This document shows, piece by piece, positions 6,126 to 21,309 of a stretch of DNA of 38,250 nucleotides; the first letter of the stretch is position 1, and each line of letters opens with the position of its first letter. Origin of the DNA: a virus. The translations under genes and the position numbers were made by a program. The stretch is taken from positions 1 to 38,250 of IMG/VR virus record IMGVR_UViG_3300019776_000417; one strand, written 5' to 3'. Below the pieces are notes generated by a model, which was not told where the DNA came from, made no database searches, and saw only the letters and a program-made list of their open reading frames with translations.

Positions 6126-6481
6126 CACGTCGCCCCCGGCGGCTTGCCGCCATGCGTGAGCATGTGCCACGCGGTGTAGATCGTCGCGCCGGCGGCGGCC
6201 AGGTAGCCGGCCCAGCGCACCAGGGTGCCGATGCCGCCCAGCACCTTGAAGCCGGCTTTCGCGGTGCTGAGGATCTCGCGCACCTCGACCGTCGTCGCGC
6301 TGTTGGCGCGCAGCTCGGTTTCGATGTTGCCCATGCGGGCCTCGCCGAGCTGCAGGCACTGGCTGACCTCCTGCAGGCGGACGGCCACCTCGGCCAGCTG
6401 CTCGGTCAGCACGCGGTGGCCGGCTTCGAGCACGCGCAGGCGCTGGTCGGAGGTCAGGGGGTTGTCGTCAGGCATCGTCAC
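6125..6481 (-). CDS. Coiled-coil protein with one membrane segment, 118 aa
   Basis: ATG 6481 overlaps the end of the tail-fibre gene by 4 bases. Residues 10-75 form a long helix with heptad character (RLRVLEAGHRVLTEQLAEVAVRLQ). A single hydrophobic stretch follows near residues 78-100 (VLGGIGTLVRWAGYLAAAGATI), then a short tail. Such coiled-coil plus single-TM proteins are common next to holins and are often annotated as holin-like or antiholin-like. It may set lysis timing or anchor a complex; that is inference from position. It is topologically similar to the protein at 33240-33614. Confidence 0.75.
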   Translation of the reverse strand: MTMPDDNPLTSDQRLRVLEAGHRVLTEQLAEVAVRLQEVSQCLQLGEARMGNIETELRANSATTVEVREILSTAKAGFKVLGGIGTLVRWAGYLAAAGATIYTAWHMLTHGGKPPGAT

Positions 6482-7215
6482 CCCTCCAGCGCCGCAACCC
6501 GAGCGCGCAGCGATTGCAGCTCGGCGATGATATTGGCGATGAACTCGGCGCTGCCGTACTCCATCGCCTGGTACACCGGCCGGCCGTCCACACCAACGGC
6601 GTCCTTCTGGCCGACAACCGACCCCGGGGAGACGGCCTGTACCTCATGCGCGAGAAAGCCGACACCCTGCTCGCCGTTGGACTTCCACACCCACCGCTTC
6701 GGCTGCAGGCCATCGATGAACGCCCCGCTGCCGGTCAGCGGCGCCACTGCGTCCTTGAGCCGGTAGTCGGATGATGTGTTGTACGCCGTGGCGGCGCCGC
6801 TCGATGTGATAGAGCCCACGGTAGCGCCGTTGTAGCTCCACAGTGCATACGTAGCAGTGCCTGACGCGACTGTGAAGTTGGCGCCGAATGCCACGCCAGA
6901 CGTCGCTGTCAGCCTCGCGCCGAATCCGTACTTGTTGGTGCTGGCGACGTTGGCATTGATGAGCGTGTCGTTGGCCGCAACGGTCTGGCTGGTGGTGGTG
7001 TTGGCCAGCAGCGAGCCGGCCGACGAGTAGCCGCCGGCCGTGGCGTTGCCGGTGACGTTGAGCGACCCCGTGACTTCGCCGACGACGGCGGCCGGCACCA
7101 TCAGATTGAAGGCCGCCGACCAGGCCGGAAGCGCAGCGAAGAAGGTATCTGCGCGAGCCGCGAAGTTGGCCGGGTCCGAACGGGTGGGCGGCGTGGGCAG
7201 GGTGGGCAGTGCCAT
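6478..7215 (-). CDS. Tail fibre/tip protein with C-terminal S74 chaperone, 245 aa
   Basis: The protein has a short Pro/Ala N-terminal attachment region and a repetitive beta-rich shaft rich in Ser, Thr, Asn and Gly (about 45-140). The C-terminal intramolecular chaperone of the peptidase S74 family follows. The S74 signature is visible: SSDYRLKD, with Ser149 and Lys154 as the expected self-cleavage dyad, then LQPKRWVWK, GFLAHEVQAV and a C-terminal trimerising helix (IIAELQSLRARVAALEG). In the family the chaperone folds the trimeric fibre and then cuts itself off, leaving a mature shaft of about 148 residues. That is short for a receptor-binding fibre. It overlaps both neighbours by a few bases. 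Confidence 0.9.
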   Translation of the reverse strand: MALPTLPTPPTRSDPANFAARADTFFAALPAWSAAFNLMVPAAVVGEVTGSLNVTGNATAGGYSSAGSLLANTTTSQTVAANDTLINANVASTNKYGFGARLTATSGVAFGANFTVASGTATYALWSYNGATVGSITSSGAATAYNTSSDYRLKDAVAPLTGSGAFIDGLQPKRWVWKSNGEQGVGFLAHEVQAVSPGSVVGQKDAVGVDGRPVYQAMEYGSAEFIANIIAELQSLRARVAALEG

Positions 7216-8102: not shown

Positions 8103-11100
8103 GCAGGCACCGTGGCAAGGGGTTGATCGGCTTCGGTGCGCACCAGCAGGCCGCGCCCGTCCCAGTCGGTATGCAGCCGCGAAATCTTGGCGGTGTAGCT
8201 GGCCGTGGCCCGCGACTCATCGCGCAGCCCCACCAGTTCCTCGCGCAACGCCACCAGCTCGGAAAGCAGCGCCTTCTGGTCTGCCGCGGCGGCATCCGTC
8301 AGGCTGGTGGTAGCCGCCAGGGTGGGCGCCACGACTTCCGCTGTGGTTGCTGTCAGCGCAGTGGTCGTGCTGACCCCGGCCGTCTTGAGCTGCTCCAGAC
8401 GCTGCTCTGCGGCGGCGGCCTCGCTGTCGCCAACGGCTCGCACCAGGTCGGCCGTCTGGCTCAGGCTAGCTGCCACTTGCGAGCGAACCAGGGTCAACTG
8501 CTGGGCGCTGGTGGCTCCGGCCGCGGCCATTTCGAGGACGGTGCGCGACAGCTCGGGCAGCGACTGCGCAGCTGACTGATCCCCCGCGCGAGCCTTGGCG
8601 GTTGCGATGGCGAACTGCGCCTGCGCGCCGGCCAGGGTGGTGGCTTGCGCTGCGTTCAGGCCCCGGATGCGCTTCACTTCGTCGGCGATGGTGTCGCCAA
8701 CGGACTGCCACGCATCCCGCAGCGCCCCAGCCGCGTCGGCGGCACCCTGCGCGTCCTGCAGCGCGTTGATGCGCTCCTGTAGCGCTCGGTTGGCCGGCTC
8801 AAGGGCCGCAAGCTCGCGGGCGCGAAGCTCGGCGGTGTTGCCCTGGAGTTGCAGCAGCTCGTTTTCAAGGGCAGTGCGCTGGTCGGCAATCGCGGCCTGC
8901 AGGGCGGCCTGGTCTTGCTGCGCGGTGGCCGCCTCGCCCAGCGCGTCGATCTGCGCCTTGATGGCGGCGTTGTAGTCGTAGGCGGCGATGGCCGCTGCTG
9001 CATCGGTGGCGGTCAGGCCGGCGGTGATCTTGGCCAGGTCTTGCTGCCGTGCCAGGGCCTTGGCCTGTGCACCCTGGCCCTGCGCGGTCAGCAGCTCGAC
9101 GTCAAGCCCGCCGCGGTCGGACATGAGCGTGGCCATGACCTGCTGTGCCGCCTTGGCAGACGCCGCCGTCAAGTCCTCGGCCACACCCGCCACCGAGGCG
9201 AACGCGGGCGACAGTTGCAGCAGCGCGGCATACAGCGCCCGGCCGCCCTCGGTCGTCAAGTCCTGCGCCATCACGAGCGCCTTGTAAGCCTCGCGCGATG
9301 CCGGCACGGTGGTGACGCCCAGGTCGCCGAGCTGCCTGGAAAGCTGCTGTGTGGCGATGGCCGCGCGCTCGGCGTCGGTGTAGAAGGCCGACAGGAAGCT
9401 GCCGGCCGCCTGGCCGAAGGCGTCAGCGCTTCCGAATGCCGACTCCAGCGCCACCGCCGCCTGGCCGCCTGAGACAGACGCTGCCAGTGTTGACTGGCCC
9501 AGCGCCCGTAGGATGTCATTGGCGTTCGTCAGCGCCGCGCCGACGCGCTCGATGGTCTGTGCAGTCGTCTCGCCGTACTGGCGCAAGGGCTCGACCTGCG
9601 CCGCGAAGGTGGCGACCAGCGCATCGGTATAGCTGCCCAGCGCCTTGACGATGGCGGCTTTGTTGGCCTCGGCATCGGCGCCGATCTTGATCTTGACCTG
9701 TGTCGTCACGCTGGCCAGTTGCTCGGCCGGCAGGCCCAGCGCCGCGCCGAATGCCTTGGTCTGCTCCATCACCGACTTGGATGCGACATCCAAGTATTTG
9801 TTGATGTCGTCGCCCAGCGCCGCGAACTGCGTGTATCGCTTGTCGCTGCGGAACCAGCCGCCCTTCTCCAGCACATCGCGGTATGCCTGACCGGTGAAGT
9901 CGCCGGCCCCGATGCTGCCGCTGATACCGCTGTCGGTGACCTGCGGCGCACCGCGGCCGAACAGGCGCGACAGGCCGCTGGCGCCGCTGAAGATGTTGTT
10001 CCACTTGTCGCTGCCGATGCCCAGGCTGTTGAACAGCCGGGCCGTGAGGAACGACGGCGATGCCGACTCCAGAAACTTGTTGTCTACGCTCTGGACGGTG
10101 AAGCCCTTGCTGTAGGCGTCTGCACTGACCGCGTAGGCGGCAATGGCTGCGGCGACGTAGGGTGCCGCTGCGGCGAAGCTGCTGGCCGCACTGCTGGCGC
10201 CAGACGCCGTGCCTGTGCCCAGGCTTCCGGTGCCGATGCTGCCGCTGATGCTGCCGTATGTGCCCGCCGTGCCGCCGATGGTGCCGTAGGTGCCGCCAGC
10301 CGCAATGCCGCCGCCAGCCGTGGCCGCCGATCCACCAAAGTACGCCGCCGCGGTGCCGTACGCCTTGTACAGCGCCGATCCGGCCGAGTAGATCGACCCC
10401 AGTGAACCTAGCGACCCGGCCGTTCCGCCGTTGGCCGCCTGCGCCAGGCCGAGCGCACTGGTCACGTAGTTGGTGCCCGTCTGCACCACGGCCTGCACCA
10501 CCGGGCGCAGCACCATGGTCTTGAACATGTTCACCACCGTATCGCGCAGGTTCTCGGCGAAGCTCTTGCCGCTCTCGAACCCCCGCAGCAGGGCATCGGT
10601 GAGTGACTTGTTCAGGTCGTCGGTCCACTTGCGGGTGGCATCGCGCGACTCCTTGCCGCCGATCTGGCTGACAAGCTCGCGCCGGGCGTCGATCTCGCGC
10701 TGGATGGTCAGCACTGCCGCCTCGTTGCCCATCATGGCGGCCTGCTGTTCCTGCAGGCGGGCGATGGTGACCAGCTCGATAGCCTGCTTCAGGCTGAGTT
10801 CGCCATCCACCACCAGCAGCGTGGCCGCTTCCTCGTCGCGCAGGGCCTGCAGTTGCTTTTCAGCGGAATCTCCGCCGCGGCCCAGGTCGGCCAGGGACTG
10901 CGCGTAGGACTTGGCGGCCTCCTTGGCGATTTCTCCGCGGCGCTTGGTGGCGGCGGCCAGGTCTTCTTCCTGCTGGGCCAGTGAGGCGGCGTACAGGATT
11001 TGTTCCTGCTGCTGCCGGCTGTAGGTGGCCCAGGTGGGGGATGCCTGAATCTCGCGCAGCTTGGCCTGTGTCTTGGTCAGCTCGTCGGCTTTGGATGAGG

Positions 11101-14694: not shown

Positions 14695-15173
14695 CGGATC
14701 ACCCCCTTGGCTTGCAGCTCGGCCAGGAATCGGTCGCGCATGGCGTCCTGCGCCTGCGGCATGGCCGAGATTGCCGGGCGCACGAAGGGCCGCGCTGCGA
14801 CCTGCTTGGGCGCCGGCAGCGGCCGGTCTTTGTGCGTCGTGAAGCGCCGGGTCTGCGGGTCATAGGTGACCTCGTAGCGCATCAGGTGCCCGAACTCCAC
14901 GAGGTGTCCATGCGGGGCCTTCTTGGCGTTCCAGCTGATGTGGTACGTGGCATGCCCCTGGCCGCTGTTGTTCTTGCTGTATGCCTGGTAGATGCTGCGC
15001 GCCAGGTTGCCGCTGTGGCGCCTGATGCCGGCCACGTTGCGCTGCACCGCCTCGTACAGCACCTGTGCGCCGGCCTGCGCTGCCGGCCGCGTGGCCGCCT
15101 CCACCGCCGCAGCGTCAGCGTCGATGCCGGCCAGTAGCTCGTCGGTATTGAGCTTGAGCGCAAAGCCGGTCAT
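14691..15173 (-). CDS. HK97 gp10-like head-tail connector protein, 160 aa
   Basis: ATG 15173 overlaps the previous gene by 4 bases; longer frames are shadows of that gene. The protein shows the HK97 gp10 (tail-joining) pattern: an N-terminal helix-rich region (LLAGIDADAAAVEAATRPAAQAGAQVLYEAVQRNV), then GNLARSIYQAYSKNN, and the GHLVEFGHLMRYEV block typical of the family. The C-terminus is PFVRPAISAMPQAQDAM with a final helix. It takes part in neck assembly between the connector and the tail terminator. Confidence 0.9.
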   Translation of the reverse strand: MTGFALKLNTDELLAGIDADAAAVEAATRPAAQAGAQVLYEAVQRNVAGIRRHSGNLARSIYQAYSKNNSGQGHATYHISWNAKKAPHGHLVEFGHLMRYEVTYDPQTRRFTTHKDRPLPAPKQVAARPFVRPAISAMPQAQDAMRDRFLAELQAKGVIR

Positions 15174-15478
15174 GACGTCGCCTTGCACACCAGGTGCATG
15201 TACAGCCGCTCCACCTCGTCGGGCAGTACGGCCTCGATGTCGTACAGCGCGGCGCCGTGCACCACACGCATGGCCGGCGTGATGCCGGCGCGCTTGCGCA
15301 CCTTGATGGACACACGCACCACCGACACCTCGGCGCCGGCCTTGATCGTCTCCAGCCCGCTGGGGTGCCGAATCTCGGCCCACACGGTGCAGACGTCGGC
15401 CCAGGTCTCCAGCGGCTGGCCGTGGGCGTCCTCGCCGGCTGCGCGCTGACGGATCACGATCTGGCTGTTCAGTGCCAC
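15170..15478 (-). CDS. Head closure protein (SPP1 gp16/HK97-type adaptor), 102 aa
   Basis: This is a small beta-barrel protein typical of phage head-tail adaptors. It has NSQIVIRQRAAGEDAHGQPLETWADVCTVWAEIRH, where the run from a Gly-containing loop to W.E is the family hallmark, then AGITPAMRVVHGAALYDIEAVLP. Its role is closing the portal channel after packaging. It overlaps the preceding gene by 10 bases and the next by 4, in the standard connector gene order. Confidence 0.9.
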   Translation of the reverse strand: MALNSQIVIRQRAAGEDAHGQPLETWADVCTVWAEIRHPSGLETIKAGAEVSVVRVSIKVRKRAGITPAMRVVHGAALYDIEAVLPDEVERLYMHLVCKATS

Positions 15479-16515
15479 AGCCGCTCCCGGTCCAGCAGTC
15501 GGTCAAACAGGGGGTTGGTCTGCATCGCCCCGCGCTGCGCCGCGTCGGGGGTGTTGATCCAGACGCTGACCAGGGCCTTGATGTAGAGCTTCACCGACTC
15601 GGGCACCTGCGCGGCGCTGGTGGGCCCGGCGGTCAGGTCAACCCGCACGCGGGCGCCCACCGCGCGCACGCCCAGCGCGGGCCAGGCGGTGCCCACGGCC
15701 GGCGCGATGACGGTGCCGGCGCCTTGCGCGGCCCACTCGAAAGCCAGCGGGTCGAGCGTGGCCCAGGTGGTGCCGTCCCAGTAGGTGACGGCCACGGCGC
15801 GCGGCTCGGCCACGTACAGCAGGTCGGTGCTGGCGGGCCAGTCGGTCAGCTCCACGCGCTCGGTGGTGTCTCGGTACAGGCGGCCGGTGATCTGCTCGGC
15901 CTGCTCGCGCGCCATCGTGATGAGGCCCTCGATGAGCGCATCCATGCCGCTGTCGGCCAGCTCCAGTCGGGCTGCGGTCTTGGCTTCGGTCAGCGTGACG
16001 GGCTCGTCGAACGGAGCCGGGTCGCTGATGGTGGCCACCACCGCCCCGGTGCCCACGATGGCGCCCGTGCCTGCCACAGATGCGGTCACGTCAATGCCCG
16101 CACCGCCGCTGACGGTGACCGACACGGCGCCGGTGCCGATGATGGTGCCGGTTCCGGCGACGGAGGCGGTGCGATCGGCGGGCACGCCCACCAGCACGGT
16201 GGCCGTCGACGTGCCCAGGTCAGCCCCATCCGCGAAAAGCCGGTAGGTGAAGGTGTAGGTGCCGTCCGTTGCGACGCTGAAGTCGAAGCTGCCGTCTTCG
16301 TAGGCAAAGAAGGTGCCGGCCGCGGGCGGGGTGACGATCAGGCCGCGGATTTCCTTGGCATCGTCGGCGCCCGACAGGTCGTTGTACAGGTAGCCGGCAC
16401 CGTGCACACCCGTGGCCGTGGTGGCGCGGATGATCGACCCGAGCACGCCCAGGCCGCGGTTGCCGACGACGCAGGCGCCTGCGATCAGACTGGTGGTGGA
16501 GACACGGCAGCTCAT
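15469..16515 (-). CDS. Head-tail connector (gp6-like) with N-terminal Ig-like/repeat extension, 348 aa
   Basis: The C-terminal about 185 residues are a gp6/phiE125 gp8-like connector: DEPVTLTEAKTAARLELADSGMDALIEGLITMAREQAEQITGRLY, then ERVELTDWP, and PESVKLYIKALVSVWINTP near the end. The N-terminal about 160 residues are different. They are beta-rich with an Ig/PKD-like segment (GSFDFSVATDGTYTFTYRLFADG). Two copies of an AGTG-type repeat follow (TASVAGTGTIIGTGAVSVTVS, then TASVAGTGAIVGTGAVVATIS). Normal connectors of this family are about 100-200 residues, so this is an unusual fusion that would place a decorative domain at the head-tail neck. The frame is continuous through both parts. Confidence 0.85.
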   Translation of the reverse strand: MSCRVSTTSLIAGACVVGNRGLGVLGSIIRATTATGVHGAGYLYNDLSGADDAKEIRGLIVTPPAAGTFFAYEDGSFDFSVATDGTYTFTYRLFADGADLGTSTATVLVGVPADRTASVAGTGTIIGTGAVSVTVSGGAGIDVTASVAGTGAIVGTGAVVATISDPAPFDEPVTLTEAKTAARLELADSGMDALIEGLITMAREQAEQITGRLYRDTTERVELTDWPASTDLLYVAEPRAVAVTYWDGTTWATLDPLAFEWAAQGAGTVIAPAVGTAWPALGVRAVGARVRVDLTAGPTSAAQVPESVKLYIKALVSVWINTPDAAQRGAMQTNPLFDRLLDRERLWH

Positions 16516-16519
16516 GGCG

Positions 16520-18007
16520 TCAGCTCGCGGTCAAGGTTTCCAGGCCCTCGGCACCGTCTGCCGTGGCCCGCCACACCACACGGTAGGCCGTGGCCACCGT
16601 GAGGGACGCGTCCGTGAAGGCCGCCACCCCGGTGCTGCCGTTGCTCGTCAGGCCGGTCTTCTTGAGCACCAAGGCGCCGGTGGTTCGGTCGTGCACAAAG
16701 GCCTCGAAGGCTACGCCCAGCAGCAGGCTGCCGGTGTTGTTCTTCAAGGGTGAGCTGGTGAGGGTGGCGCCGGCCGCCGCCGTGGTCACGCTGGTGGACA
16801 GCACCGGCGTGCTGAGGTTGCCGGCGCCGTCCACGGCACGCACGCGCACGGCGTAGGTGGTGCCGGCGGTGCGGCCCGTCACGCTCACCGCATCCGTCAG
16901 CACCGGCGTCCAGCTCGTGCCGCCGTCCAGGCTGTAGTCATACCCGGTGATGCCCACGTTGTCGGTGGCGGGCGGCCAGTCGAGGTCGAAGCTCGTCTGC
17001 GTGATGTTGGCCACCGTGATGGTGCCCGTGAGCACCGGCAGGGTGGTATCACCTGCGGCACCGGTGCTCTGCGTGACCGACAGGGCCGGCGTGCTGACGT
17101 TGCCGGCTGCGTCCTTGGCGCGCACCTGGATGGTGTAGCTGGTGCTGGCCGTCAGGCCGGTGAAGGTGCGGGCCGTGGTGGTGTTGCCGGTGTCCGTCCA
17201 GCTGCTGCCGCCGTTGATGCTGACCTCGTAGCTGGTGACGCCCACCGCGTCGGAACCGGCCGGCCAGGTGACGGCGATGCTGGTGGCGGTGACGGTGCCG
17301 ACCGTGATCGCACCCGTGAGCGTGGGCGGGGTGGCGTCGACACCGAAGGTGGTGGCCACCGCAAAGCCCATGTGGTCGCCATACGCGGCAGTGCTGCCCC
17401 AGGTGGCCTGCACGTCCACCGAGCCCGACGCGGCATCGCTGCGCTCGTAGCACGCCACCACGCTGGTGATGGCCGGGAACCAGGCCTCGGAGAATGCCAG
17501 CGTGGCGGGCGACACCGCCGTGCCGGCCGTGGCCTCACCCTGGCGCATCAGCGCGAAGGCCGACTGAGCGGCGGTCTTGCTGACCGTGACGGTGCGCGTC
17601 AGCGTGATCGTGCCGGGTGCCGGGGTGACGCCGTTGATCAGCGACAGGTCGCCGCCGTCGGCGTCGATCAAGTTGAAGGCGAAGATGCCGGGCCGCGTAG
17701 CACCGGATGACAGCGTAGCGACAATGGCCTGATTGCCGGAAGGCAGCGACGAGCCGGCCAGCCACCACAACTGCCACAGGGCCTCCGTGCCGCCTGAGCG
17801 GGAGGGGCCGGCCGTCATTGCCACACCGCCGCAGGTCACGCCGGTGACGGTCAAGCCCGACGACACCGAGTGCGTGTCCACCACAGCGATGACCATGCGG
17901 CCGGGGCCCGTGCCGCATGGGTGCGCGGCGATCGTTTTGGTGGCGGCGAAGTTGCTGTCGATGGGGGTCGAGGACTTCGACCCTGCGACGAATACCGGAC
18001 GTGCCAT
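16520..18007 (-). CDS. Virion surface protein with two fibronectin type III domains, 495 aa
   Basis: The N-terminal about 225 residues are beta-rich and resemble small phage structural proteins beginning MARPVFVAG. Two FN3 domains follow, near residues 228-315 and 320-410. Each has the Trp-Pro core (VTWPAGSDAVGVTSYEVS; LDWPPATDNVGITGYDYS) and the terminal YTIQVRAKDAAGNVS or YAVRVRAVDGAGNLS strand. The C-terminal about 80 residues form another beta domain. FN3 and Ig domains on phage heads and tails bind surface carbohydrates weakly in known examples. Position between the hydrolase and the connector genes suggests head or neck decoration. No secretion signal is present. Confidence 0.85.
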   Translation of the reverse strand: MARPVFVAGSKSSTPIDSNFAATKTIAAHPCGTGPGRMVIAVVDTHSVSSGLTVTGVTCGGVAMTAGPSRSGGTEALWQLWWLAGSSLPSGNQAIVATLSSGATRPGIFAFNLIDADGGDLSLINGVTPAPGTITLTRTVTVSKTAAQSAFALMRQGEATAGTAVSPATLAFSEAWFPAITSVVACYERSDAASGSVDVQATWGSTAAYGDHMGFAVATTFGVDATPPTLTGAITVGTVTATSIAVTWPAGSDAVGVTSYEVSINGGSSWTDTGNTTTARTFTGLTASTSYTIQVRAKDAAGNVSTPALSVTQSTGAAGDTTLPVLTGTITVANITQTSFDLDWPPATDNVGITGYDYSLDGGTSWTPVLTDAVSVTGRTAGTTYAVRVRAVDGAGNLSTPVLSTSVTTAAAGATLTSSPLKNNTGSLLLGVAFEAFVHDRTTGALVLKKTGLTSNGSTGVAAFTDASLTVATAYRVVWRATADGAEGLETLTAS

Positions 18008-18016
18008 GTGGGGGCC

Positions 18017-19240
18017 TTAGAAGCTGACCGTCACCCAGGTGTTGGCACCGGGGATCGTGACGAGTTGCGGCGTGGGGTTGCCGGTGTAGATCGGCGACTT
18101 GGGCTTGACTTTCACCGTGCAGGCGCTGCTGATGTGCGTGACCTGGCAGGACCAGGCACCGGCGCTCTCGGTGACGTTGCGGAAGGACAGGCCGGCGTTG
18201 ATGCCGCCCGTCAGGTCTACCGCGGGGTTGCCGTCCAGGCTGTGCTCGCTGAACACGGGGTAGCCCTTGCCCAGCTCGAACATGCCGTAGGGGTAGCTGG
18301 CGGTGATCTGCGACAGGATGTCGCCGCTGCCGTGGTTGCCGTCGTTCCAGACGAAGGCGAACCCGCGCCCGGTGGCGCGCATGGCGGCCACGGCGTCGAT
18401 GTGGTCCTGAAACGGCATGTAGCCGTCGTTGCGGCCCACGCACCAGCCGACCCAGGGCATGGTGTTGGCCGTGTTCGATGCGTAGGCGATGATGTCCAGA
18501 TGCGACTGCACGGTGCCGGCTGGCGATGCCCGGTCCCACAGCGCCGGGGACGCGCCGAACAGGTAGCGCTGGATGGCAGTGGCCCAGGAGAACACCGCCA
18601 CGGCGCCCGCCGTCTCGGACGAGCGCCAGCGCGGGCGGCTGGGGTACAGCGCGGCGAACTTGTCGGCCCGGCGCACGCCGTAGGTCATGGTGCCCCAGCC
18701 GCCCATGCTGCCGCCGGTCAGGTAGCGCTTGGTGGGGCTGAGGTTCGCCGCCTGGTTGGCCTCGATCCAGGCCAGCATCGCGTCCAGCCGCTGCTCGGTG
18801 TACAAGCACAGCTTGCCGGTGTTGGCGTTGCTGGCCACGTTGGGGCTGCTGTCGATCCAGCCCAGCCACAGCGACTCGCGGATCGCGCCCGACGCATAGG
18901 GCGGCAACTGCCGGTCATGGGGGTAGACCATGGTGATGCGCGCACCGGACGAGTCCACCCCGCCGCGCACCAGCGCGAAGTTGAAGACGTTGGTGGTGTC
19001 GTAGCTCAGGTCCGAGCTGCAGGCGGCCGAGCAGTTGATGCCGCTGGTGGTCTGCGCCGTGCCGCTGCCGTGGAGCTGCAGCACCATGGTCTGGTCGGGC
19101 GTGGTGAACGGCACCACCGAGTCAGTCGACACGATGTTGACCGACGAGAAGCCAGGCGGCGGCGCCACGGGCGCAGCACGTCCACCGCGCACCGTGGCGC
19201 CGCTCGCGGCGGTGTAGCTGTCAGCGGTAGGCGTGGCCAT
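18017..19240 (-). CDS. Alpha/beta hydrolase inside the structural operon, 407 aa
   Basis: The protein has an esterase/peptidase-type alpha/beta hydrolase core. The nucleophile elbow is GGSMGG with Ser178. Asp272 (GRNDGY) and His303 (NDGNHGSGD) lie in the right order to complete a triad. The oxyanion region may be MVLQLHGSG near residue 52. The first 25 residues (MATPTADSYTAASGATVRGGR) copy the start used by phage virion proteins, not an export signal. The last about 75 residues form a beta-sandwich tail. Genes on both sides are structural, so it is probably carried on the particle. Substrates could be acetylated capsule, lipopolysaccharide or a polyester; the sequence does not say which. Confidence 0.85.
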   Translation of the reverse strand: MATPTADSYTAASGATVRGGRAAPVAPPPGFSSVNIVSTDSVVPFTTPDQTMVLQLHGSGTAQTTSGINCSAACSSDLSYDTTNVFNFALVRGGVDSSGARITMVYPHDRQLPPYASGAIRESLWLGWIDSSPNVASNANTGKLCLYTEQRLDAMLAWIEANQAANLSPTKRYLTGGSMGGWGTMTYGVRRADKFAALYPSRPRWRSSETAGAVAVFSWATAIQRYLFGASPALWDRASPAGTVQSHLDIIAYASNTANTMPWVGWCVGRNDGYMPFQDHIDAVAAMRATGRGFAFVWNDGNHGSGDILSQITASYPYGMFELGKGYPVFSEHSLDGNPAVDLTGGINAGLSFRNVTESAGAWSCQVTHISSACTVKVKPKSPIYTGNPTPQLVTIPGANTWVTVSF

Positions 19241-19243
19241 CGG

Positions 19244-19603
19244 TCAGGCGGCGGCGTGCGCCAGGGTGGCCGAGGTGATCTGCACCGTCTGCCCGGCCGT
19301 GATGGACAGCGCCGACAGGATGACCTGTGCGCCGCTGCCGGCCAGGTCGACCGTCATCGCGCCTTTGTGGTTGTCGCCACCGGCAGTGCGGTAGCGGGCG
19401 CTGGCCACGGTGCCACTGGCGGCCGCCGTCACGGTCTTGGGGAAGCCGCTCATGGTGGTGACGGCGCCCGACGCGGTGGGCGTGCCCGTGCCGGCAGAGG
19501 CGACGACGGCGCCGCCAGCATCCAGCAGGTCGATGGTGCCGCCGGCCAGGGCGGTGGCCGAGGCGGAGGCGAAAAGGGCCAGGGCGTTGGCGGAGAAGGT
19601 CAT
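19244..19603 (-). CDS. Small beta-rich virion-associated protein, 119 aa
   Basis: The protein is Ala/Gly/Thr-rich and almost entirely beta, with a short helical start (MTFSANALALFASASATAL) and strands such as GTIDLLDAGGAVVASA. It resembles a class of small phage proteins encoded next to head decoration genes whose function is not established. It could be a decoration protein bound to the capsid lattice or an attachment module for the hydrolase and FN3 proteins that follow. ATG 19603 follows the previous gene after 21 bases with a GGAG ribosome site. Confidence 0.7.
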   Translation of the reverse strand: MTFSANALALFASASATALAGGTIDLLDAGGAVVASAGTGTPTASGAVTTMSGFPKTVTAAASGTVASARYRTAGGDNHKGAMTVDLAGSGAQVILSALSITAGQTVQITSATLAHAAA

Positions 19604-19624
19604 GGGTGGGGCTCCGTGTGCCGA

Positions 19625-19972
19625 TCAGGCCAGCAGATCGGCCAGGGCCGACTCGACCTCGAGGATCTTCTTGCCGAGGGCAGCGGCGGTGTCGGGGTCG
19701 GCCTTGGTCTGCAGGTCTTGCAGCTGGGCGATCTCGACGCGCTTCGCATCAACGGCCGTAGCCAGCTCCTCGGCCGCGACCTCGATGGCGCTGCGGACCA
19801 CAGCCGCGCCGGACTCACGGGCATAGGCCACGGCGTCCTTGTGCGGATCGACAGATCCATCGGCGGCCAGCGCCTTGATGAGGGAGGCCTCGGCCTCGAC
19901 CAGTTGCTCGGCCTTGAGCGCGTGCAGCGGCACGTCGCACAGCACGCGCGCGGGGATGAGTTTTCCTGCCAT
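19625..19972 (-). CDS. Small head-operon protein, 115 aa
   Basis: ATG 19972 follows a hairpin downstream of the capsid gene. The N-terminal half (KLIPARVLCDVPLHALKAEQLVEAEASLIKALAADGSVDPHKDAVAYA) matches a recurring pattern in phages, where a short protein with strands and the motif LVEA..A.IKAL..DG.VD occurs right after the capsid gene. The C-terminal half is a coiled helix rich in Ala/Glu/Leu. It may be a capsid accessory or head-completion factor; no function is known to me. Confidence 0.72.
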   Translation of the reverse strand: MAGKLIPARVLCDVPLHALKAEQLVEAEASLIKALAADGSVDPHKDAVAYARESGAAVVRSAIEVAAEELATAVDAKRVEIAQLQDLQTKADPDTAAALGKKILEVESALADLLA

Positions 19973-20006
19973 GGTGGATTCCTGTCTGAGTGGTAGGTGT
20001 TCCAGC

Positions 20007-20029
20007 GCCCGCCGCGCATGGCGGCGGGC
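20007..20029 (-). terminator. Strong hairpin after the capsid gene
   Basis: GCCCGCCGC (20007-20015) pairs perfectly with GCGGCGGGC (20021-20029) around GCATG, in the gap between the capsid stop and the next ATG. It lacks a T-run, so it may act as a 3' stability element or weak terminator that keeps capsid mRNA abundant relative to distal genes. Confidence 0.45.
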
Positions 20030-20046
20030 TGTCTCGGTGCCGTCGA

Positions 20047-21237
20047 TCAGGTGGCCGAGTGCTTGTAGGTCTTCACCGCAGCGGTATCCAGCAGGTTGCC
20101 GCCGGAGCGTGCCCAGGCCAGGAAGCCGACTTGGCCCAGCTTCATGTAGGCGCTGTCATCGAACCGGAACAGCGTGACCTCCATGGCGTCACGGATCAGG
20201 TACTTCTTGTGGCTACCGAAGCTGGCCGACACCGCATTGGCCGCGGGCGCCGGCATGTCGTTGTTGATGTTGATCGGGTAGCCCAGCAGCTGGTCGGGCA
20301 TGCCGGCCGACAGGCCGCTGTCGTAGCTGGGAGTCCAGATCGGACGGCCGGCCGTGTCTTTGATCTTGCGGACCACCTTGCGCAGGGTCTGTCCGAACTG
20401 CCAGCCGACATCGGGTTCGTCCAGGTAGGCGATGTCCAGGGAGTCCACCAGGTCGACCAGGTCGTCGTAGATGATGGTCAGCGTCTGGCCGGTGGTGCCG
20501 GTCTTGCCCACCGAGGCCGCCACGGTGATGCCGAAGGGCTCACCGGTGCCGCTGCCGATGCTGTACTTCTGGTTCTGGATGCGGCCGATGCGCTGGCGCA
20601 GGCGCGCATTGACCATGGCCACCACATCGATCTGCGAGTCCTGCAGCAGCTCGATGGGCACGGTGATGATCTTCGATCCGAACTTGAAGGTGTTCACCGG
20701 CACGGTGCCAAAGCTGGCGTCGGCTGCGGTGGCGGTGACGTTCTGCGCGATCACTTCACCGACTTCAGCCGTGCCGTCGGAGCTGGGCCAGCTCATGTCG
20801 GCGCCGTTCTCGGTGACCACACGGTCGGCCACCCGCCGCATGCCACCGAAGTCCTTCATCGCATCGATGAAGGTCGATGCCACCGAGGTCTGGACGGTGT
20901 AGCCGCCCTGAGAGCCGGTGGTGGTGCTCATGGTGTTCCGCACCGTCGCGATCTCCTCCGGGCTCATGTCCTTGAAGGCCTTGCGCAGGAAGATCTCCAC
21001 GCCGGCGACGTTCTTGGTGTCGCCGCCTTCCTTCTTGGGTGCGTGCTTCTCGGCACGGGCGTCCAGCATCTTCTGGTGGGCACTGATCTGGTTGTCGATG
21101 CGCTCCATCTCTTCGACATGGCCGTCGAAGCTGGCCTGGTCGTCCTTGGTCCAGACCTGTTCGCCCTTGTCGGCGAGCAGCTTGTTGGCGAGGCGCGAGA
21201 TTTCGGTCTTGCGCTCGCGCAGGGCTTGAATGCTCAT
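20047..21237 (-). CDS. Major capsid protein, HK97 gp5 family, 396 aa
   Basis: The layout is the HK97 one. The N-terminal about 100 residues are a coiled-coil scaffolding (delta) region (LRERKTEISRLANKLLADKG to AEKHAPKKEGG). The capsid fold begins near FLRKAFKDMSPEE and runs through STTTGSQGGYTVQTSVAS (N-arm), RRVADRVVTENG, FGSKIITVPIELLQDS and IGSGTGEPFGI. The C-terminal domain has LGYPININNDMP and YLIRDAMEVTLFRFDD. The delta region would be removed by the ClpP-like protease encoded just upstream. It has a strong AAGGAA ribosome site and an intrinsic terminator 27 bases upstream of the ATG. Confidence 0.97.
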   Translation of the reverse strand: MSIQALRERKTEISRLANKLLADKGEQVWTKDDQASFDGHVEEMERIDNQISAHQKMLDARAEKHAPKKEGGDTKNVAGVEIFLRKAFKDMSPEEIATVRNTMSTTTGSQGGYTVQTSVASTFIDAMKDFGGMRRVADRVVTENGADMSWPSSDGTAEVGEVIAQNVTATAADASFGTVPVNTFKFGSKIITVPIELLQDSQIDVVAMVNARLRQRIGRIQNQKYSIGSGTGEPFGITVAASVGKTGTTGQTLTIIYDDLVDLVDSLDIAYLDEPDVGWQFGQTLRKVVRKIKDTAGRPIWTPSYDSGLSAGMPDQLLGYPININNDMPAPAANAVSASFGSHKKYLIRDAMEVTLFRFDDSAYMKLGQVGFLAWARSGGNLLDTAAVKTYKHSAT

Positions 21238-21263
21238 GATGTTCCTTTCAGGTGGTGAGCAAG

Positions 21264-21285
21264 AAAAAGCCGCCTCTGGGGCGGC
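21264..21285 (-). terminator. Intrinsic terminator ahead of the capsid gene
   Basis: On the minus strand, GCCGCC and GGCGGC pair across a 5-base loop, followed by five T residues (plus-strand A-tract 21264-21268). It lies between the protease and capsid genes, only 27 bases before the capsid ATG. Its tail and the following leader resemble those at the tail-tube terminator (GGCGG-TTTTT-CTTGC and a shared CTGAAAGG ribosome site). Confidence 0.85.
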
Positions 21286-21309
21286 ATGGTTCGCTGCGCG
21301 GCGAGCGCG

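Follow-up and report, generated by a model that had tools for sequence, protein, structure and literature searches.

The presence of a putative alpha/beta-hydrolase gene among the head genes of a phage raises the question of whether the enzyme belongs to the virus particle and, if so, on what it would act. The window analyzed here is an entire virus record of 38,250 bases, in which HK97-type head genes occupy the minus strand; genes for a repressor of the S24 type and for a large serine recombinase indicate that the phage, which is probably siphovirus-like, is probably temperate. The initial annotation had suggested a capsid- or neck-mounted esterase that could act on capsule, on lipopolysaccharide acetyl groups or on polyester storage granules, encoded beside an FN3 protein and a decoration-like protein and upstream of connector genes; all three kinds of neighbor were recovered here. 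The genes concerned, including the hydrolase (hereafter HYD), are as follows:

20047-21237, minus strand: major capsid protein (Pfam PF05065, 169.8 bits; 60.6% to Variovorax phage VarioGold)
19625-19972, minus strand: homologue of VarioGold VG_p06 (43% over 51 aa, E 6e-6), bounding the cassette insert on the left
19244-19603, minus strand: small protein of 119 aa, decoration-like (matched weakly, at 30.4 bits, by phrog_3758, "virion structural protein")
18017-19240, minus strand: HYD, alpha/beta-hydrolase payload protein, 407 aa (homology, model, triad alignment)
16520-18007, minus strand: fibre protein with FN3 repeats (Pfam fn3, 58.8 bits), residues ~412-495 being a conserved C-terminal (CT) domain
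15469-16515, minus strand: gp6-like head-tail connector (residues ~146-346; phrog_442, 44.9 bits) with an Ig-like domain (residues 1-110) fused in front of it
15170-15478, minus strand: head-closure protein, right flank (48% to VG_p08, E 5e-28)

HYD starts with an ATG codon; the coordinates given in the initial annotation were correct, and the strand, which it had omitted, is minus. The GC content around HYD is approx. 70%, and the plus strand opposite the gene is also free of stops (408 codons, overlapped by a plus-strand ORF of 708 aa). As both strands are open at this GC content, the open frame alone does not prove HYD and was dismissed as evidence; the reality of the gene thus rests on homology. 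Relatives of HYD were found at 15 viral loci in a first search and at two more in a second, i.e., in 17 other IMG/VR contigs, with best segments 35-48% identical to the minus-strand protein (64% for one fragment of 139 residues), and we thus rejected the idea that HYD is unique to this phage. The only near-identical pair informative for a comparison of substitution classes (L008/L010) differs by 12 synonymous vs. 5 non-synonymous changes (pS = 0.041, pN = 0.005). HYD is identical in L005 and L012 and nearly so in L006/L013 and L008/L010, and L067 resembles L006/L013 by eye; because of these near-duplicates, the HYD contigs are not all independent. One relative (L016, positions 1-1268) carries a HYD split by a frameshift into two overlapping frames, and the genes after it do not resemble the fibre and Ig genes seen elsewhere. 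Searches with tblastn yielded no match to HYD in plasmids or in 50,697 INPHARED phage records, among which HYD would therefore otherwise have stayed unannotated; the decoration protein, the N-terminal peptide, the CT domain, the Ig domain and the beta-helix fibre of L002 also had no tblastn match in INPHARED. Among genome contigs, a first scan found no relative and a second scan no clear one; a weak 47-residue match around the serine in the second scan (L017) was set aside as a different bacterial esterase.

An AlphaFold2 model of HYD (12 sequences; pLDDT 74, pTM 0.80) comprises an alpha/beta-hydrolase domain (residues ~34-324) and a separate all-beta domain (residues ~327-407, pLDDT > 90), which agrees with the beta tail seen earlier. 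Residues 1-28 are disordered in the model (pLDDT < 50), and confidence in the lid is moderate, with residues 127-146 and 229-241 below 50. The parts of HYD considered below are:

19169-19240, minus strand: residues 1-24, a portable N-terminal peptide that is proposed to act as docking module (shared profile; disordered in model)
18707-18709, minus strand: codon of Ser178, the nucleophile, in the motif GGSMGG (triad alignment)
18425-18427, minus strand: codon of Asp272 (triad alignment)
18332-18334, minus strand: codon of His303 (triad alignment)
18017-18268, minus strand: C-terminal beta domain, residues 325-407 (model, conservation)

The Ser178-Asp272-His303 triad had been proposed from the sequence, with structure prediction as a suggested check; in the model the three residues occur in the canonical order, i.e., Ser after strand 167-176, Asp after strand 263-269 and His after strand 294-299. 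In an alignment of 19 rows from 18 contigs (window included), Ser178 was kept in 17/17 covering contigs, Asp272 in 18/18 and His303 in 17/17 in-frame contigs (the out-of-frame row of the frameshifted L016 reads L), so the triad is invariant among in-frame relatives. His57 was kept in 16 of 17 contigs, L016 having Tyr at this position. The central sheet, the nucleophile elbow and the Ser-Asp-His order, as judged from model and triad, place HYD in the alpha/beta-hydrolase superfamily, and its structural matches (Foldseek, VIA-align) are also alpha/beta-hydrolases, with Z up to 14.0. Esterase D/S-formylglutathione hydrolase were the best neighbors (Z 13-14, 12-17% identity), followed by Ag85 (Z up to 13.2) and feruloyl esterases (up to 12.7), which are too close to rank; a fold search of BFVD returned generic alpha/beta-hydrolases and nothing more specific. 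With conserved homologues, fold and triad all recovered, the hydrolase call stands, and HYD is probably an ester-cutting, putatively active enzyme. Assignment to a named family was rejected for both Pfam PF00756 Esterase (CE1-like; 18.2 bits, gathering cut-off 22) and Pfam PF00326 Peptidase S9 (17.6 bits, gathering cut-off 22.6). HYD shares fold, triad order and nucleophile elbow with CE1-type enzymes and esterase D (PF00756), but, besides scoring below the family cut-off, it is viral and has an additional N-terminal peptide and C-terminal beta domain.

Among relatives, identity in this beta domain is 55-65% (37% in L016), as compared to 28-47% for the catalytic domain (a value of 71% for L015 spans just 56 residues). 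This higher conservation would be expected if the beta domain contacts something conserved; a search of the domain against PDB sequences found nothing convincing.

Using profiles built from the window and its relatives, we found that HYD is part of a cassette with the order [optional PL26-like protein] - [small structural protein] - HYD - fibre with conserved CT domain (~80 residues) - Ig-like protein. Among the testable HYD contigs, an Ig-like protein was encoded downstream of HYD in 16/17, a fibre with the CT domain was found in 15/17, and the full payload-fibre-Ig order was present in 15 of 17; these counts omit L013 and L067, where the contigs end inside HYD. L016 showed neither a CT nor an Ig match, and L022 had no recognized CT domain. 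Fibre bodies vary among relatives (beta-helix, ConA-like by eye, or FN3), and a small decoration-like protein is encoded directly upstream of HYD in the window, L002, L003, L007 and L022. Cassette genes are co-oriented on the head strand, 3-9 bases apart. In L004 and L015, three small genes separate HYD from the fibre, among them (L004 9164-9996 and L015 420-1243) genes for an APS kinase (55.1 bits in L004 and 51.4 bits in L015; cut-off 21.1) and for a sulfotransferase (28.6 bits in L004 and 25.6 bits in L015; cut-off 22); sulfation genes within a virion cassette of two different viruses are an odd finding. EBPR siphovirus 1 encodes a companion protein, an FN3 protein, a CT domain and an Ig protein (gp39-gp42) without HYD. 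The record in question (L021, JF412302) is titled EBPR siphovirus 1 (54 kb), but the paper's table assigns this accession to the 11-kb ESV6; the accession labels appear to be shifted.

Comparison of the window with VarioGold, in which VG_p06 and the connector gene are 77 bases apart and the cassette is absent from the matching site, delimits an insert of decoration protein, HYD, FN3 protein and Ig domain between the VG_p06 homologue and the head-closure gene. As the VarioGold connector VG_p07 had no match among the window ORFs (blastp, E <= 1e-3), the right flank of the insert rests on head closure. Ig domain and connector form a single frame of 348 aa in the window and are separate genes in L015; this fusion is the best hint that the assembly may sit at the neck in the window phage. 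In the relatives, cassette positions were assigned by profile matches and by eye, with L007 and L011 left unplaced. In the window, L002, L004, L009, L022, L023 and L044, the cassette or a variant of it has the capsid gene on one side and tail or later virion genes on the other; in L013 it immediately follows the capsid gene (the contig ends there), and in L006, L015 and L016 it lies upstream of connector, gp10 or tail-tube genes. In L005/L012 it separates tail-fibre from lysis genes, in L060 it comes after lysis-like genes and in L008/L010 before the terminase, whereas L003 and L014 have no recognized head gene near it. We thus rejected the idea that the cassette is always next to head genes; as its position varies, position alone does not place HYD on the particle. 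Of the capsid or neck mount suggested at the outset, the neck is favored by the Ig-connector fusion, whereas a general capsid mount is not, as relatives carry their cassettes elsewhere.

These data bear on the possibility that HYD is a moron, i.e., a lysogenic-conversion gene whose product works in or around the host cell and outside the particle. A temperate lifestyle (serine recombinase, S24 repressor), the cassettes of L003 and L014 away from recognized head genes, and the APS kinase and sulfotransferase genes inside the cassettes of L004 and L015 all speak for such a gene. Against it, HYD is packed into the head strand at the same short intergenic distances as its neighbors, a consensus scan (itself weak evidence) found no promoter-like site in 15400-21300, the HYD N-terminus has no hydrophobic signal-like stretch by eye, and the gene is constantly paired with fibre and Ig proteins, of which the Ig domain is fused to a connector. 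We thus regard a moron as unlikely.

The N-terminal peptide links HYD to other enzymes. A profile of its ~24 residues detected 28 ORF rows at E < 1e-5 among 7614 ORFs (the next at E = 1), several of these rows being one gene seen in overlapping loci; L044 and L022 were part of the training set, and L060, L051 and L024 were outside it. In L044 (8758-9984), the peptide stands at the start of a protein whose remainder is a SASA carbohydrate esterase (30.1 bits, cut-off 24.8), and in L060 (6118-8652) it precedes a GDSL acylhydrolase (46.5 bits, cut-off 32.9). L024 (3489-5450) has the peptide near the start of a protein that is otherwise beta-helix-looking by eye and has no Pfam match. L051 has no HYD; the peptide is found there at the very end of a PL26-like protein, and the fibre (8527-10908) has an internal SASA domain (67.2 bits) as well as the conserved CT domain. 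Pfam detected no SGNH, SASA or GDSL domain in HYD, such domains being confined to its slot-mates L044, L051 and L060. The virion-style N-terminus described initially is thus a genuine transferable module, common to unrelated enzymes. At least three ester hydrolases that are unrelated to one another (HYD, SASA, GDSL) occur in the slot, which suggests that its job would be ester hydrolysis on something that the fibre reaches; this apparent exchange is the strongest functional evidence in our analysis.

Moreover, in four contigs (L005, L011, L012 and L023) a PL26-like protein of ~700-830 residues continues at its end into HYD, and in L005, L011 and other HYD fusions the peptide lies at the junction of the two. 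Of this companion family, 16/22 members match PcRGLX_1st at E <= 0.01, which we take to be the N-terminal domain of PL26-type rhamnogalacturonan lyases; the cut-off was passed by EBPR gp39, L028 and L059, but not by L002 (17.4 of 22.1). A companion profile of 4 sequences gave a six-hairpin glycosidase match (E 5e-4) that was gone with 22 sequences, and AlphaFold2 modeled the PL26-like protein so poorly that the result was set aside. The cassette of the window itself has no PL26-like gene. Two further proteins of this kind were observed, i.e., one of 1546 aa with the PL26-like domain twice in tandem (L038 425-5065) and one of 1580 aa in which a Pfam Beta_helix region is joined to a PL26-like domain (L037 1957-6699).

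In the reading that we consider probable, payload, fibre and Ig adaptor make up a virion-associated cassette, in which HYD would be the exchangeable enzyme and would cleave acyl esters on a host polysaccharide. As the payload can be exchanged for unrelated sugar-esterases, HYD most likely helps the particle to remove acyl groups from the host's sugar coat. The earlier suggestion of an esterase acting, together with virion proteins, on surface polysaccharide is in line with the SASA and GDSL domains in the same slot and with the four PL26-like fusions. Mechanistically, the ~24-residue peptide, possibly with the C-terminal beta domain, would dock HYD onto the fibre/Ig assembly, and the Ig-like protein would anchor this assembly to the particle, in the window phage via the fused head-tail connector. 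During adsorption, the Ser-His-Asp triad would cut acyl (most likely O-acetyl) esters on host capsule, exopolysaccharide or O-antigen; deacylation might either expose the chain to the companion lyase-like or beta-helix protein or itself represent an enzymatic receptor contact. More tentatively, the short peptide may plug unrelated enzymes into a fibre-Ig assembly shared by tailed phages that is here built into the neck, which would give the phage, besides its ordinary tail fibre, a second, head-proximal apparatus for the deacylation of host polysaccharide.

Alternatively, a virion-borne HYD could act on lipid or polyester (outer-membrane lipids or PHA granules) and not on polysaccharide. Some enzymes with this fold do hydrolyze lipids or polyesters, and a weak local match to PHA depolymerase surrounds the serine; however, the PHA depolymerase model (NCBIfam NF050058) scored only 16.8 bits against a cut-off of 150, so the assignment was rejected and the polyester granules of the initial annotation lost their support, and both the SASA carbohydrate esterase in the slot and the PL26-like fusion point to sugar. 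We therefore judge a lipid or polyester substrate to be improbable. A structural or lectin-like protein that binds acylated glycans or decorates the particle, with catalysis secondary or lost, would account for the stronger conservation of the beta domain and for the frameshift in L016, but is very unlikely, as triad and nucleophile elbow are kept where the rest of the catalytic domain drops to 28-47% identity and other ester hydrolases replace HYD in its slot.

For the preferred reading of HYD as a polysaccharide esterase carried by the particle, the closest architectural parallel is gp34-36 of the Alishewanella phage LSH1. All three proteins were detected in virions by mass spectrometry and were proposed to form a chain of Ig, fibril and payload, an "extra structural module" present in only half of related genomes (PMC13243795). 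As in the HYD cassette, a carbohydrate-directed payload, a fibril and an Ig-fold protein are adjacent; the likeness is one of architecture alone, and the LSH1 payload is a beta-helix and no alpha/beta-hydrolase, and the module follows lysis genes. Profiles of our Ig and CT families matched no phage fibril in the PDB, the GP4 fibril included. With regard to chemistry, many Klebsiella prophages encode receptor-binding proteins with an SGNH domain, two of which were active esterases (PMC13123978); these proteins and G7C gp63.1 share with HYD the proposed action of a virion esterase on host polysaccharide, but have another fold and reside within tail fibres or spikes, whereas HYD would be a separate payload with a portable peptide, encoded near head genes. 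With regard to location, the neck passage structure of lactococcal phages of the 936 group bears carbohydrate-binding modules (PMC6669499), i.e., carbohydrate-directed proteins are placed at the neck as we propose for HYD; these domains are unrelated to HYD and include no esterase, and the passages considered describe no Ig-connector fusion. Depolymerases usually sit at the tail end, and a 2017 review names one in a pre-neck appendage as departing from this rule (PMC5380687); the enzyme cited there, Dpo7 of a Staphylococcus phage, is described as a polysaccharide-active enzyme of a neck-type appendage, but belongs to another protein family and a Gram-positive host.

Swappable virion depolymerases and deacetylases are thus already known; new are the alpha/beta-hydrolase payload family, the peptide common to unrelated payloads and the Ig-connector fusion. 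A literature search with incomplete journal coverage found no published description of the HYD cassette. The cassette combines a single peptide, a single fibre type and a single Ig adaptor with four or more kinds of payload; it provides a testable example of phages swapping surface-active enzymes while keeping tail fibres. If the neck attachment is true, it would represent an enzymatic appendage at a site for which the papers considered mostly describe binding modules.

Three further features of the window were observed. A conventional tail fibre or spike with a Peptidase_S74 domain (chaperone of endosialidase) is encoded at 6478-7215 (minus strand), besides the head-side cassette. A terminator-like hairpin lies between the protease and capsid genes (21269-21285, minus strand); three such sites were found vs. 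2.2 expected, possibly by chance. Finally, an ORF at the far end of the phage (36212-36979, plus strand) matches deoxynucleotide monophosphate kinase (28.6 bits, cut-off 27.1).
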